DNA of 62,900 bases, taken from IMG/VR virus record IMGVR_UViG_3300042987_001364, positions 1 to 62,900 of that record, one strand, 5' to 3'. Positions 903-49,024 of the stretch are shown piece after piece; position 1 is the first letter of the stretch; every line of letters begins with the position of its first letter. Below the pieces are notes generated by a model, which did no database searches, had not been told where the DNA came from, and was given only the letters and a program-made list of their open reading frames with translations. Origin of the DNA: a virus. The position numbers and the translations under genes are program-made.

Positions 903-1178
903 ATGGAAGAGATGACTGATCTGGAAGAAGTGTTGGCTGAGCGTGGCTCCAAGTACGGCGAGTTTTCAAAGAACTCTATGGTGAGCCAGTTGCTTAAATC
1001 AACTTTGTACAATGTTCCGCGAAATGCAGCGTTCTCCCACTATCAGCGGGAAGCGTTGGACATGATCGCCAATAAACTATCCAGGATTGTCTGCGGCGAC
1101 CCGAATTACGCCGACTCGTGGAGAGACATTGCTGGCTATGCCACGTTGGTGGCTGACATTCTTGAGTCTCGCAAATGA
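903..1178 (+). CDS. DUF6378-like phage protein
   Basis: A 91-residue protein with the pattern of a small family common in tailed phages: an N-terminal ERGSKYGEF motif, a central REALDMIANKLSRI helix, and a C-terminal GDPNYADSWRDIAGYA motif. Function is unknown. It overlaps the start of the large terminase subunit by 4 bases (ATGA), so the two are probably translationally coupled. An alternative start is ATG 912. Confidence 0.65.
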   Translation: MEEMTDLEEVLAERGSKYGEFSKNSMVSQLLKSTLYNVPRNAAFSHYQREALDMIANKLSRIVCGDPNYADSWRDIAGYATLVADILESRK

Positions 1179-3679
1179 GCGACTTGGCCGCGTTGATTTC
1201 TAAGCTGCCTGAGAATGAGCAACAGAAGTTGTTGGCTCAGGTAGGCGCATATAAAGAGGCGCTGGAGCGGGAGAAGGCGCAAGCGGACTTCATGGCGTTT
1301 GTGAAGATGATGTGGCCGTCGTTTATCCACGGTCGGCACCATGCTTTGATGGCGAAGAAGTTCGAGGAAATCGCGGCGGGGAAGGTGAAGAGACTCATCA
1401 TCAACATGGCCCCTCGGCACGCGATAAGGTTAGATATGAAGATACCAACATTGAACGGATGGAAAACGATGGCCGACTTATTGGTTGGCGATTATGTTTT
1501 CGGGCCTGATGGGATTCCAACAGAGGTAATTGGAAAATCAGAAGTGTTTCACGATAGAGACATTTATCGCGTGACTACGGATGATGGATTCAGCCTGGAT
1601 GTTGATGGCGAGCATCTTTGGACGGTTAGGTTGCACCGAAAGCACGATGTCTATCACGACTTCACGACTGAAGAGTTATGGCGTAGGCAGAACGGTGAAG
1701 TGCTGAGAATGGGTAGAGGTGGGAGCACACACTTCTTGGCGGGGCATGTCAAAAATCCACGATTGCCAAGATTGCCTGACGTGAATCCCGTCATTTACGA
1801 ACGGCAATCCTTGCCGATAGCACCCTATGTTCTTGGTGTATGGCTCGGTGATGGGCACAAGAATCAAGGGGTAATTACCTGTCACGATGACGATCAGGTT
1901 GGCATTCGGCAAATGTTCGAGGCGCTTGGGTACAGAACGACTGCCCAATCTACCCCGATGACGTTCGGAGTTTTGGGTCTAAAAGAAAAACTCCGCGATC
2001 TTGGTGTGTTAGGGAACAAACACATCCCGCAGGCGTATCTGATGGGTAGCGTAGATCAACGTAGATGGTTGCTCAAAGGTCTGATGGACACGGATGGCAA
2101 CGTGTCAAAAGCAGGTCAATGTTTCTTCGCGCAAAGCAACTTGAGTCTCATCAATCAAGTGCGCGAACTTCTAGCCAGCCTTGGGATTAAGAACTCATTG
2201 ATCTCTACCGAGGCAAAAATTGGAGACAAAAGCTACGGCAAGACATGGAGGATTAGCTTTTATGCTTCCAACATTGCTCATTTAGACAGGAAAGAAAATC
2301 GGACGATCAAGTACAAGCCAGCATTCGGAAGGTACATCAAAGTAGAAAAACTAAACGAAACTGGCAGTACGCAATGTATCAAGGTAGCTCGTCAAGACGG
2401 TTTGTTTTTGGCCGGAGAAGGCTACATTTGTACGCACAACACCAAATCCGAGTTTGGCTCGTTTCTTTTGCCGGCTTGGTTTTTAGGAAAGTACCCGGAG
2501 AAGAAAGTTATCCAATGTTCAAACACGGCGGAATTGGCTGTTGGCTTCGGACGGAAGGTTCGAAACCTGGTTGGGTCGGATCACTATAAGAAAGTGTTTC
2601 CGAGTGTTGATCTTCGGGCTGATAGCAAAGCGGCTGGACGCTGGGATACCTCGGGTGGGGGTAGCTATTTTGCTATCGGCGTTGGAGGTACGGTGACAGG
2701 TAAAGGTGCTGACCTTCTTATCATCGATGACCCGCACAGCGAGCAAGAGGCCAAGTTAGCCCAAGGCGACCCGACCGTATTTGACGGCGTGTATGAATGG
2801 TACACCTCCGGACCACGGCAACGTCTCCAGCCAGGGGCGGCCATTGTCGTAATTATGACTCGCTGGAGTGACAAGGACTTAACGGGCAAGATCATTAGGA
2901 ACTCACGACACGAGGACGAATGGGAAGTGATCGAGCTACCGGCCATCCTTCCATCGGGCGCACCTCTATGGCCTGAGTTCTGGAGTCTCGAAGAGCTTCT
3001 TGCTCTTAAAGAAGAGTTACCTTCCTACAAGTGGAACGCACAGTACCAGCAACAGCCGACTGGCGAAGCGGGTGCGATTATTAAGCGTGAGTGGTGGCGT
3101 ATATGGAATAAAGATCGTCCGCCTAATTGTGAATTCATTATCCAGTCTTGGGATACAGCCTTTACCAAAGGCGAGAGGTCGGACTATTCGGCCTGTACGA
3201 CTTGGGGTATTTTTAATCTTAACGAAGACCCCAATGATGTGAATATCATATTGCTGGATGCGTTTAAGGATAAATGGGAGTTCCCGGAATTAAAACAAGC
3301 AGCATTTAATTCGTGGAAAGAATGGGAGCCTGACGCATTTATTATTGAAGCGAAGGCAGCTGGGGCGCCGTTGATATTTGAGTTAAGGCGTATGGGTATT
3401 CCGGTTAGTGAATATACGCCATCGCGCGGTAATGACAAATTTGCGCGTCTCAATTCGGTTACAGATTTGTTTGCCTCGGGTAAAGTATGGGCACCGGACG
3501 CGAGGTGGGCTGATGAAGTAATTGAGGAAATGGCGAGATTTCCTAATGCGGAGCACGATGACTTATTGGATAGCTCGGTGCAGGCCCTCATCCGGTTTAG
3601 GCAGGGTGGATTTTTGCGGTTACAGACCGACGAGCCTGACGAGGAAATCGGATGGCGGCGAAAAAAGGCATATTATTGA
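1175..3679 (+). CDS. terL: Terminase large subunit with embedded intein
   Basis: The packaging motor ATPase and nuclease. The 834-residue precursor carries a 340-residue intein at residues 83-422; the spliced enzyme would be 494 residues, normal for the family. The P-loop is split: APRH before the intein joins TKSE after it. Walker B is LLIIDDP (about 514-520), and IMTRW with the following Asp is the coupling motif. The C-terminal RNase H-like nuclease shows acidic residues at D660 (SWDTAF), in IIEAKAAGAP, and D795/D796 (HDDLLDS). Because the intein interrupts the ATP-binding loop, packaging activity should depend on splicing. It follows the DUF6378-like gene with a 4-base overlap and precedes the portal gene. 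Confidence 0.95.
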   Translation: MSDLAALISKLPENEQQKLLAQVGAYKEALEREKAQADFMAFVKMMWPSFIHGRHHALMAKKFEEIAAGKVKRLIINMAPRHAIRLDMKIPTLNGWKTMADLLVGDYVFGPDGIPTEVIGKSEVFHDRDIYRVTTDDGFSLDVDGEHLWTVRLHRKHDVYHDFTTEELWRRQNGEVLRMGRGGSTHFLAGHVKNPRLPRLPDVNPVIYERQSLPIAPYVLGVWLGDGHKNQGVITCHDDDQVGIRQMFEALGYRTTAQSTPMTFGVLGLKEKLRDLGVLGNKHIPQAYLMGSVDQRRWLLKGLMDTDGNVSKAGQCFFAQSNLSLINQVRELLASLGIKNSLISTEAKIGDKSYGKTWRISFYASNIAHLDRKENRTIKYKPAFGRYIKVEKLNETGSTQCIKVARQDGLFLAGEGYICTHNTKSEFGSFLLPAWFLGKYPEKKVIQCSNTAELAVGFGRKVRNLVGSDHYKKVFPSVDLRADSKAAGRWDTSGGGSYFAIGVGGTVTGKGADLLIIDDPHSEQEAKLAQGDPTVFDGVYEWYTSGPRQRLQPGAAIVVIMTRWSDKDLTGKIIRNSRHEDEWEVIELPAILPSGAPLWPEFWSLEELLALKEELPSYKWNAQYQQQPTGEAGAIIKREWWRIWNKDRPPNCEFIIQSWDTAFTKGERSDYSACTTWGIFNLNEDPNDVNIILLDAFKDKWEFPELKQAAFNSWKEWEPDAFIIEAKAAGAPLIFELRRMGIPVSEYTPSRGNDKFARLNSVTDLFASGKVWAPDARWADEVIEEMARFPNAEHDDLLDSSVQALIRFRQGGFLRLQTDEPDEEIGWRRKKAYY
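1421..2440 (+). mobile_element. Class 3 intein with LAGLIDADG homing endonuclease
   Basis: In-frame protein intron, precursor residues A83 to N422, splicing to T423. It starts with Ala, not Cys or Ser. The block B region has H147 and W149, block F has C401 where most inteins have Asp (QCIKV), and the C-terminus is T420-H421-N422. Trp at B:12, Cys at F:4 and Thr at G:5 form the WCT triad of class 3 inteins, which splice through the block F cysteine. Two LAGLIDADG motifs, LGVWLGDG (D226) and LKGLMDTDG (D307), mark a homing endonuclease between the splicing blocks. The insertion lies exactly in the Walker A loop of terminase. The element looks intact. Confidence 0.93.
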
Positions 3680-46459: not shown

Positions 46460-46738
46460 ATGCGAAGAGCAGCGAGGCGGGACGATAACGAATCATCTAT
46501 TGTGAAAGCGTTGCGTGACGCGGGCGCCACGGTGTATTTCATCGATCAACCCTGTGATCTGATCGTAGGTTACGAGGGAAAAACGCTGTTGTTTGAAGTG
46601 AAAGATGGCAACAAGCCACCGTCGGCGCGGAAGCTAACAGAGAACGAGCAGAAGTTCTTCGACACGTGGACAGGTGGTCCGGCATATGTAGTAGATAGCA
46701 TCCAGGCGGCCCTTGCAGTTATGAAGGGCGTGGTGTAA
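46460..46738 (+). CDS. VRR-NUC-like small nuclease
   Basis: A 92-residue protein of the short PD-(D/E)XK/VRR-NUC type: DDNESSIVKALRDAGATVYF, then D48-like QPCDLIVGYEGKTLLFEVKD, where D, E and K (EVKDG) form the metal site, and PPSARKLTENEQKF. It may resolve branched DNA during recombination. It is divergent from the exonuclease operon and followed by a strong terminator. Confidence 0.75.
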   Translation: MRRAARRDDNESSIVKALRDAGATVYFIDQPCDLIVGYEGKTLLFEVKDGNKPPSARKLTENEQKFFDTWTGGPAYVVDSIQAALAVMKGVV

Positions 46739-46774: not shown

Positions 46775-46802
46775 GGCCCTCTTAGTTGAGGGCCTTTTTT
46801 TT
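46775..46802 (+). terminator. Rho-independent terminator
   Basis: GGCCCTC (46775-46781) pairs with GAGGGCC (46788-46794), loop TTAGTT, followed by eight T. It separates the VRR-NUC gene from the RNA locus. Confidence 0.9.
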
Positions 46803-46941: not shown

Positions 46942-47016
46942 GCTCCCTTCGTATAACGGTTATTACGGCTGATTTGTAATCAGCTTATCTGGGTTCGATT
47001 CCTAGAGGGAGCACCA
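46942..47016 (+). tRNA. tRNA-Thr (anticodon UGU)
   Basis: A 75-base tRNA. Acceptor GCTCCCT pairs with AGGGAGC; the anticodon arm is GCTGA-TTTGTAA-TCAGC with anticodon TGT; the T arm is CTGGG-TTCGATT-CCTAG; and the 3' ACCA is encoded. The D arm has one mismatch. It reads ACA threonine codons. Confidence 0.93.
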
Positions 47017-47120: not shown

Positions 47121-47276
47121 ATGAAACGCAAAATCTTAGTTGGCCTCGCCTTAGTCGGCATCCCGCTGGCGGCATGGGCTAACTGCACTCACTTCACGAT
47201 GATGGTCGGAGATCGTGTGGTGCCATGTACCATATGCTGCACACCAGAGGGTCAGTGCGTCACGCGCTGTTTCTAA
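47121..47276 (+). CDS. Secreted six-cysteine peptide
   Basis: A 51-residue protein. MKRKILVGLALVGIPLAAWA is a classic signal peptide with AWA as the cleavage site, leaving a 31-residue mature peptide with six Cys (C22, C36, C39, C40, C46, C50), enough for three disulfides in the periplasm. No known family recognised. Its ribosome binding site lies inside the pseudoknot-like leader. A periplasmic inhibitor, exclusion factor or toxin-like peptide are all possible. Confidence 0.65.
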   Translation: MKRKILVGLALVGIPLAAWANCTHFTMMVGDRVVPCTICCTPEGQCVTRCF

Positions 47277-47305: not shown

Positions 47306-47328
47306 TCTGAAGTTCTAGCAGAAACCTC

Positions 47329-47364
47329 ATAGAACCTTATAGAACTCCCATAGAGACTCATAGA
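47329..47364. repeat. Four ATAGA iterons in helical phase
   Basis: ATAGA begins at 47329, 47339, 47350 and 47360, spacing 10, 11 and 10 bp, within the looser unit CTCATAGAAC. All four face the same side of the helix, as expected for cooperative protein binding. A+T-rich DNA and a perfect dyad follow. Confidence 0.55.
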
Positions 47365-47375
47365 AGTAAAAAAAG

Positions 47376-47397
47376 TTACGTCACCCTCTTGACGTAA
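47376..47397. promoter_or_regulatory. Perfect 8-bp dyad, candidate operator
   Basis: TTACGTCA (47376-47383) and TGACGTAA (47390-47397) are exact inverted repeats separated by six bases. The second arm overlaps TTGACG, a fair -35 box, although no good -10 follows at the right spacing. Confidence 0.5.
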
Positions 47398-47424
47398 TAC
47401 GTGAGGTTAGGCAAGATTTCTCCT

Positions 47425-47574
47425 GTTGGGCGGCATCCCAACAATGTCTATAGGAACAATAACTTACCCCAGAATGTTCAAGTGGGGCATGTGTAATCAG
47501 TGGTGCGTTGTTCCTATCGCATTGTTGGTTGCCCATGCCAGGGCCATGCCCCACTTAAGCACTCTGGGGTTTTT
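47425..47574 (+). ncRNA. Structured RNA with two interleaved long helices
   Basis: Helix A: CCAACAATG (47438-47446) pairs with CATTGTTGG (47520-47528), and ATAGGAACAA (47450-47459) with TTGTTCCTAT (47508-47517). Helix B: CCCCAGA (47467-47473) with TCTGGGG (47563-47569), and AAGTGGGGCATG (47480-47491) with CATGCCCCACTT (47545-47556), then five T. The order A-B-A-B is that of a pseudoknot, or of alternative folds in which B is a terminator. A further hairpin, GTTGGG-CGGCAT-CCCAAC (47425-47442), competes with helix A. Chance pairing of this extent is very unlikely. Confidence 0.65.
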
Positions 47575-48003
47575 GCTTTTCTGGCTCGCTTCAACTCGGC
47601 TTCTGTTTAAGAGTCACTTAAGTCCCGATACCTCGGGTAGGAACTGAGTAACCGTAAAGCGTCATGGCGGCGGCGAAAGGGTAGTACCTTAGGACGGACG
47701 TATGGAAACGGTGGGCAGTAGCTTAAAGCTGGAACAATCGCACCAGACCAGCAAGAGCGGGATGCACTCAAAGTATCGAGTGGCGCAGTGCTCGGTGTGA
47801 GCCTCCTGATAGGCAAAAGACTGCGACTCAACACGGGTTAGGCCGGGGTTGAGCGATGGGGTGACTCAGCGGATACCTAATCTAGCATGAGCCATTGGAT
47901 ACATCCCGAGGGTTGCCTTCGTAGGCTGCCCTTGGGAAGGTTTTGCCCAGAGTTCCTATGCGTTTCCTATCCCGCATGCCACGTGATCCTGACGAGACTG
48001 AAT
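47575..48003 (+). other. Non-coding, structured stretch
   Basis: No gene seen. Several hairpins can form: CCCGA-TACC-TCGGG near 47634; CTCAAC with GTTGAG closing about 47827-47853; GCCT-CCTGAT-AGGC near 47800; and a 14-pair stem at 47905-47936 (CCCGAGGG with CCCTTGGG, loop TCGT). The content resembles a large folded RNA continuing from the interleaved-helix element, up to the ATG at 48004. Confidence 0.45.
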
Positions 48004-48426
48004 ATGCGAGTCGACTTAAACGTACCGTATGCTGAAAAAGAGAGTGCCAAAAGATTAGGCGCTAGATGGGATGCAATCAAAAAGACTTGGTATGTGATCG
48101 ACGCTGTGGAGTTGTGGCCGTTCATGAAGTGGATGCCTGCTCATCTTAAGCGGCCTGTTAAGAACACTCAGCCTACAGCACAGACCAAGACGGCTAAACG
48201 AAGTAAGCAAGTGAAGTCTAAGAAGGCTTATGAGAACGCCATGAACAGACTGGCACAGAAGAACGCGAGTCTGATTGTTGGCCCGATGACTTCACGAACG
48301 GACTTCTCTTTACCTGACACGGGTTGTTCGTGTCCGCCGTGGGAGGAATGCGAACACGTTCTACGGGCTAGAGTTGAAGTCAGTCCTGAGCAGTTAAGTC
48401 ATATCAGGTCGATCATCAACGGGTAG
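48004..48426 (+). CDS. DUF5710-domain protein
   Basis: A 140-residue protein. Residues 1-30, MRVDLNVPYAEKESAKRLGA then RWDAIKKTWYV, are the DUF5710 motif found in primases, conjugation proteins and phage proteins. A Lys/Thr-rich linker and a C-terminal cysteine cluster (DTGCSCPPWEECEHVLRA) follow. It lies alone between two non-coding structured segments, so an RNA- or DNA-binding partner role is tempting but unproven. The frame is open upstream to 47887, which lacks the family pattern. Confidence 0.7.
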   Translation: MRVDLNVPYAEKESAKRLGARWDAIKKTWYVIDAVELWPFMKWMPAHLKRPVKNTQPTAQTKTAKRSKQVKSKKAYENAMNRLAQKNASLIVGPMTSRTDFSLPDTGCSCPPWEECEHVLRARVEVSPEQLSHIRSIING

Positions 48427-48663
48427 TAGACTTGTGGGTTAACGTACTACAATATGTCATGTTGTCGGACTCGAACCATGGCGAGGCGTGTGATCCACAG
48501 ATGACAACGGACACCCCGGAGAGACGGGGGCTAACAGGAAAGCAAGTCAGGAGTATCCTCAACTACAGGGGATAGAATTCGTGGCTTCTGGCTTGCTTCC
48601 TTGTTGGCGTTACGGGGCGGGGCGCTGTCATGGCGCGTTAAGAAAGTCCTATTTCGCCAACAT
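48427..48663 (+). other. Non-coding segment with strong stems
   Basis: No gene seen. AGGAAAGCAAGTCAG (48536-48550) pairs over 14 pairs with CTGGCTTGCTTCCT (48588-48601), one bulge and one G-U. TGTTGGCG (48602-48609) pairs with CGCCAACA (48655-48662), ending one base before the first tandem RNA copy. GTTGTC...GACAAC and CCCCG-GAGAGA-CGGGG lie upstream. Confidence 0.5.
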
Positions 48664-48786
48664 CCAACACGCATGAGTATTGGAGTCCGAGGGGGCGCGA
48701 ACCCTTGGTAAGCCAGTTAATAATTCCGACAGTCCTAGGAAACTTCGAATGAAACTGACCAGATAGCCAGTACTCAGCCGTGTTGG
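48664..48786 (+). ncRNA. Tandem structured RNA, copy 1
   Basis: Closed by CCAACACG (48664-48671) and CGTGTTGG (48779-48786). Inside: P2 GAGTA (48675-48679) with TACTC (48771-48775); P3 GAGGG (48689-48693) with CCCTT (48702-48706) around GGCGCGAA; a long arm CAGTT (48714-48718) with AACTG (48753-48757) stacked on ATTC-GA (48723-48729, one bulge) with TCGAAT (48745-48750). Copy 2 at 48895 keeps these helices with different bases. No known RNA family recognised. Confidence 0.8.
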
Positions 48787-48897
48787 TGTAGCTCAACTGA
48801 AAGCTGGCATATATTGAAACCAGCTAGTCGGCAGACGAAAGATAGAGCGGCCTCGGCAGGGGACGGTTGCGGGTTTGAATCCCGTCATCAACAACCA
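48781..48897 (+). ncRNA. tRNA-like structure with 50-base D loop
   Basis: Acceptor TGTTGGTG (48781-48788) pairs with CATCAACA (48886-48893), 8 pairs, followed by A and encoded CCA (48895-48897). D stem GCTC (48791-48794) with GAGC (48845-48848). T arm GCGGG-TTTGAAT-CCCGT (48869-48885); the usual C of TTC is T. The D loop is 50 bases and holds the hairpin AGCTGG/CCAGCT (48802-48825). Only 20 bases remain for anticodon arm and variable region, with no 7-base anticodon loop, so it is not a normal tRNA. Its ends overlap both tandem RNA copies. Confidence 0.55.
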
Positions 48898-49024
48898 ACA
48901 CGCATGGCGATTGGACTCTAAGATAGCGCGAAATCTTGGTAAGCCCATCAATAGTCCGAAGTCCTGGCGCTAGAGGTATTCTTCGGATGCGGTGAGCCAG
49001 ATAGCCAGTCGCCAGCCGTGTTGG
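48895..49024 (+). ncRNA. Tandem structured RNA, copy 2
   Basis: Closed by CCAACACG (48895-48902) and CGTGTTGG (49017-49024). P2 GGCGA (48906-48910) with TCGCC (49009-49013); P3 AAGAT (48920-48924) with ATCTT (48933-48937) around AGCGCGAA; arm CATC (48946-48949) with GGTG (48991-48994) stacked on GTCCGAAG (48954-48961) with CTTCGGAT (48981-48988). Compared with copy 1, P2 changes by three and P3 by two double compensatory substitutions, while GCGCGAA, TTGGTAAGCC and CCAGATAGCCAG are kept. Confidence 0.8.

Follow-up and report, generated by a model that had tools for sequence, protein, structure and literature searches.

The 150-base element described here lies in a 62.9-kb viral record (the window) from an uncultured water phage and appears to encode a real, evolutionarily conserved knotted RNA. 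Judged by comparison among viral contigs, a large predicted noncoding RNA of about 100 phage genomes begins with the same module design, for which unrelated sequences are used. The best explanation, which we hold with slightly better than even confidence, is a gate in which one helix (A) would form first and an interleaved one (B) later, with either termination or read-through as the outcome. The portal protein of the record resembles those of the podoviruses 023Pt_psg01, Pag-Yong1, and HTVC027P.

Helices A and B (Table 1) have no bases in common, and the 5' strand of B sits within the loop closed by A. Their interleaved order A5'-B5'-A3'-B3' had been proposed in a sequence-only reading of the window and is correct by coordinates; relatives show compensatory change. 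The T tract that this reading placed at the end of B is indeed there, and both of its "19-pair" helices are real, although B is longer than quoted, with 24 pairs. The duplex energy of A is -27.2 kcal/mol. At -66 kcal/mol (z -5.2), the best nested fold of 47425-47574 combines P1 with B, C, and D; none of 200 dinucleotide shuffles folds as well as the element, and D closes a three-way junction together with B and C. The sequence UUGUUCCUAU in the apical loop of C can pair with AUAGGAACAA just 5' of B, which makes the inner 11 pairs of A a pseudoknot that fits the P1/B/C/D fold except for one closing pair. Of C, these inner pairs engage only the apical loop and one closing base, and the rest of C can form alongside them. 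The outer 10 pairs extend them at the cost of the C 3' strand and of part of the corresponding strand of P1. Hairpin C, formerly read as a competitor of helix A, is thus real and competes with the outer 10 pairs but is mostly compatible with the inner 11. A second possible partner of the P1 5' strand, P1', lies 3' of the T tract. The P1 and D hairpins had gone unnoticed in the earlier reading, as had the promoter, P1', the large downstream RNA, and the recurrence of the design with unrelated sequences elsewhere.

Table 1. Coordinates of the element and adjoining features in the window
Feature	Position	Strand	Remarks
Helix A, outer part	47438-47447 / 47519-47528	+	10 pairs
Helix A, inner part	47450-47460 / 47507-47517	+	11 pairs
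Helix B	47466-47491 / 47545-47570	+	24 pairs in 26, -41.5 kcal/mol; followed by TTTTT
T tract	47570-47574	+	TTTTT; from sequence; predicted 3' end of short RNA; T-rich up to 47579
Helix C stem-loop	47495-47507 / 47518-47530	+	apical loop 47508-47517 is the 3' strand of inner A
P1 hairpin GTTGGG-CGGCAT-CCCAAC	47425-47430 / 47437-47442	+	from folding; double changes on 5/6 pairs
D hairpin GCCC-ATGCCA-GGGC	47531-47534 / 47541-47544	+	from folding; sequence invariant in alignment
Downstream noncoding region	47575-48004	+	from alignment; folding z -2.5 against shuffles (moderate)
Candidate P1' TTCAAC	47590-47595	+	6 weak pairs with GTTGGG, two of them G-U; clearer in relatives
Sigma-70-like promoter TTGACG-17-CAAGAT	47389-47417	+	predicted +1 at 47425
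Inverted repeat TTACGTCA-6-TGACGTAA	47376-47397		from sequence; covers the -35 box

A search with a pattern for the 3' part of the element matched 32 viral contig stretches (the alpha relatives). In these the sequence of helix A varies almost freely, but B, C, and D are retained, as is the T tract. Nevertheless, helix A is found at the same place in all 17 dereplicated alpha sequences (element included) as 7-14 uninterrupted base pairs, built from about a dozen unrelated sequences. Since these helices differ in length and their columns are not directly alignable, strands were swapped between alpha sequences, which abolished pairing save between near-identical relatives. The decisive test for A was permutation across loci: over 78 loci the mean for own partners was 20.1 against a permuted maximum of 15.7 (0/2000 permutations). 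Shuffling within each locus gave p<=0.01 in only 23 of 90 loci, because A often has only 7 bp. For P1, B, C, and D, 94% of the cells in a ten-sequence alignment are paired and 16 pairs show double changes (0/500 shuffles), and sliding these helices by one base lowers pairing to about 50% or less. Covariation was seen in P1, in B, and also in the competing hairpin C (0/500 shuffles), here on 4/6 pairs. The sequence of B is strongly conserved in close relatives, and one locus (L148) rebuilds it with compensatory changes; the T tract 3' of B is retained in alpha and beta relatives and in the loci of the nc2-II type introduced below. A conservation analysis had been proposed earlier as a check, and relatives in viral contigs do retain both helices despite sequence change, with compensatory changes. 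Two interleaved helices, each with comparative support, thus define the pseudoknot.

The long inverted repeats could also be taken for a site that acts as DNA, such as a cruciform or a packaging or replication site. However, G-U pairs far outnumber A-C mismatches (35:0 in C and 28:3 in B), and promoter and T tract both define a single strand. The ratio in C identifies the plus strand as the RNA, and the DNA-only reading, which we regard as extremely improbable, was rejected on this asymmetry. A coding reading (ORF 47426-47647) was likewise ruled out, as length differences among relatives are not multiples of three.

The predicted transcription start of the sigma-70-like promoter coincides with the first base of P1. 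Taken alone the element's own promoter is weak (p 0.16 against shuffles). Across the alpha and beta modules scanned, the best -10 box sits 6-8 nt 5' of P1 in 35 of 35 (element included), many of them with near-consensus hexamers, so transcripts should begin at P1. The inverted repeat over the -35 box is a possible operator or minus-strand terminator. Further upstream, the plus strand carries an endonuclease-like small gene (46460-46738), a terminator-like site (46775-46794), and a tRNA-Thr (46942-47016). Between the tRNA and the element lies a 51-aa ORF (47121-47276) with a signal-peptide-like start, a Cys-rich end, and no Pfam match, and short imperfect repeats of the type CATAGAA/TATAGAA are found 5' of the promoter (47315-47366). 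Elsewhere in the window, the terminase large subunit gene (1175-3679) contains an in-frame insert bearing a LAGLIDADG domain, probably an intein. A noncoding stretch at 48603-48675 is 85% identical to positions 5502-5574 of L004, where it lies 3' of the same endonuclease-like gene. On either side of a tRNA-like sequence with an insertion of about 40 nt (48782-48893; Rfam tRNA 31 bits, no ARAGORN call) lies a cassette of about 125 nt (48664-48785 and 48895-49023) with CCAACACGCATG...CAGCCGTGTTG as its bounds, and similar cassettes recur in L004, L009, L011, L022, L034, L072, and L074.

A second pattern search yielded 17 contig stretches, mostly with a module of different sequence but identical order: A5' lies in the loop of P1, and B5', a hairpin, A3', B3', and the T tract follow. 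Downstream of the T tracts of such modules follow a P1' strand complementary to the transcript start and then a large noncoding RNA, which comes in several types. Scans for the commonest of these, nc2-II, matched one contig of a Burkholderiales MAG and at least 120 stretches of viral contigs, and it occurs in about 100 distinct viral loci. This RNA (L072-L097, L107-L115, L121-L234) has conserved sequence and a few covarying helices, and no T-tract terminator was seen at its 3' end. A strong T-tract stem together with an A helix was present within 420 nt upstream in 84 of the 97 nc2-II loci scanned and in 0/544 random windows from the same contigs, a somewhat flattering contrast, as the random set omitted windows near some T-tract motifs. 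The modules upstream of nc2-II are mostly unrelated in sequence, and several loci that have no module nearby possess one 300-430 nt upstream with an insert in between.

The two parts seem to be coupled by pairing between P1 and P1', which over 78 loci scored 13.7 where crossed strands averaged 11.4 (0/2000 permutations), for a P1' placement adjoining the start of the large RNA that was refined after seeing the data, earlier placements having given weak results. The stretch from T tract to large RNA showed no promoter, and in most alpha loci the T tract and P1' are separated by only about 10 nt, too few to accommodate one. This bears on the view that the module is a free-standing, stable small RNA ending at the T tract and followed by a separate gene: promoter, compact pseudoknot, and terminator would indeed make a complete small-RNA gene, but the missing room for a promoter, the P1/P1' pairing, and the nearly constant presence of a module ahead of nc2-II make it improbable. 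Another view is a single folded RNA of about 450-600 nt in which the T tract would serve as a structural linker or pause and normally not as a stop: P1/P1' pairing spans the T tract, the large RNA beyond it has no visible promoter of its own, and ORFs and hairpin cassettes lie between T tract and P1'. Unrelated modules, however, keep a GC-rich stem with 4-6 T immediately after it, which a linker would not need, and we consider this alternative unlikely, though the most serious of those weighed here.

In L125, L151, L177, L188, and L233, small ORFs of 73-90 aa are inserted 3' of the T tract and ahead of the large RNA, with visible relatedness in the pairs L151/L177 and L188/L233. Noncoding cassettes are inserted between T tract and P1' in L073, L095, L105, L108, L110, and others, leaving P1' intact, and many of these cassettes have terminal inverted repeats of their own. 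The 73-codon ORF of L151 and L177 has its ATG immediately next to the T tract, which suggests that read-through occurs; if ORFs 3' of the T tract are expressed from the promoter at P1, it must.

At the element itself, the region 47575-48004 is apparently reached by read-through only. Its first 110 nt or so align with a rarer large-RNA type, nc2 type I (L005, L024, L081, L091, L099, and L105), and the rest is divergent; by the nc2-II profile it does not belong to nc2-II. A scan with the type I pattern matched only two contigs, both among the known relatives. Given the weak P1' and the divergent downstream region, the link between the element and a large RNA rests mainly on the relatives.

When growing transcripts were folded, a 3' end at 47518 gave only inner A, extended A was best from 47530 to 47562, and from 47566 on P1 formed together with B, C, and D. 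The earlier helix A therefore alternates with the terminator helix in these minimum-energy folds, with the switch between 3' ends 47562 and 47566, and the conserved GC-rich stem with a U tract immediately after it has the sequence of an intrinsic terminator. In the gate that we favour, transcription would start at P1, with the element as the 5'-terminal domain of a noncoding phage RNA. Helix A would form first, between the P1-proximal strand and the C loop region, and B would have to wait for its 3' strand, which is made just ahead of the T tract. Should B form in time, intrinsic termination near 47574 would yield an RNA of about 150 nt with P1, B, C, D, and inner A in a compact pseudoknot. 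If A held, RNA polymerase would read on and make the large RNA, in some phages along with a small ORF, and P1 could then trade its local partner for P1'. With no base common to both helices, A would have only kinetic or topological means of blocking B. We infer that it delays or prevents termination because the 5' strand of B lies in a loop closed at both ends, within which a strand tethered to the polymerase could not wind a 24-pair helix; the two-turn winding of B round its 5' strand would need A to open. A signal may set the balance between the outcomes; no ligand, protein site, or leader peptide in this role was found, which counts against the gate. Only 53 of 89 relatives have A in the nested best fold before the 3' strand of B is made, which speaks against the gate, though the low count is partly due to kissing A helices that nested folds cannot represent. 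The weakness of the element's own promoter and P1' also weighs against it.

The earlier reading had offered either a stable pseudoknotted RNA or a switch between antitermination and termination. Each is partly supported, the discrete transcript of about 150 nt by structure, promoter placement, and T tract, and the switch from A to B by progressive folding, and the evidence suggests that they are two outcomes of one element. The put RNA of phage HK022 likewise opens a phage transcript as a structured RNA and is potentially tied to read-through. By analogy, the 5' RNA could be a processive antiterminator acting on RNA polymerase, since it is structured, starts at transcript +1, and seems to need read-through of its own T tract. 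An RNA that binds the polymerase should, however, keep its contacts, and no sequence is kept between modules; moreover, the RNA here ends in a T tract, and put RNAs are not known to carry one. We consider this very unlikely.

The gate proposed above resembles intrinsic terminators and transcription attenuators such as trp-type leaders and terminator riboswitches in having a GC-rich stem and T tract near the 5' end, with the terminator helix overtaking one formed before it and read-through yielding a downstream RNA. It differs in that the early helix interleaves with the terminator and shares no strand with it, in that no leader peptide or ligand domain was seen, and in that the product is mainly noncoding RNA. 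GOLLD (RF02032) and ROOL (RF03087) are likewise large, pseudoknotted, phage-encoded, and often near tRNAs. GOLLD, with its conserved 3' region, less conserved 5' region, and tRNAs in the linker (PMC12286853), is the closest large phage RNA in organisation, sharing the variable 5' part, linker inserts, and phage and tRNA context, whereas the internal terminator-like stem and the P1/P1' pairing are features found here and not in GOLLD or ROOL. The GOLLD model gave no match above cut-off in 12 records (best E 4.46; no true GOLLD genome served as control), and the ROOL model matched neither here nor in its control genomes.

Rfam 15 at the gathering score returned only tRNA matches for the whole record, and relaxed thresholds gave nothing relevant for the element region and related loci. 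BLAST of the L006 and L110 regions against phage isolates gave no match, the isolate matches listed for the element region fall on its tRNA-Thr, and the nc2-II profile found nothing in four isolate phages. A genome collection held no match to the alpha pattern and a single MAG contig for nc2-II. Literature searches returned no description of such an RNA class, an absence that is no proof of novelty elsewhere. The large RNA with this 5' module is apparently undescribed. A further reading, which we consider less likely than not, is that it represents a new class of phage RNA in which the 5' domain would be a terminator with a topological gate, built from many unrelated sequences and placed ahead of a large RNA that is conserved and, in some cases, a small ORF. 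Uncultured phages would appear to possess a widespread large RNA, for which no Rfam family was found, with a 5' domain defined by conserved topology and not by sequence. If the gate is true, it would be an attenuator whose interleaved helix opposes termination without sharing any bases of the terminator.
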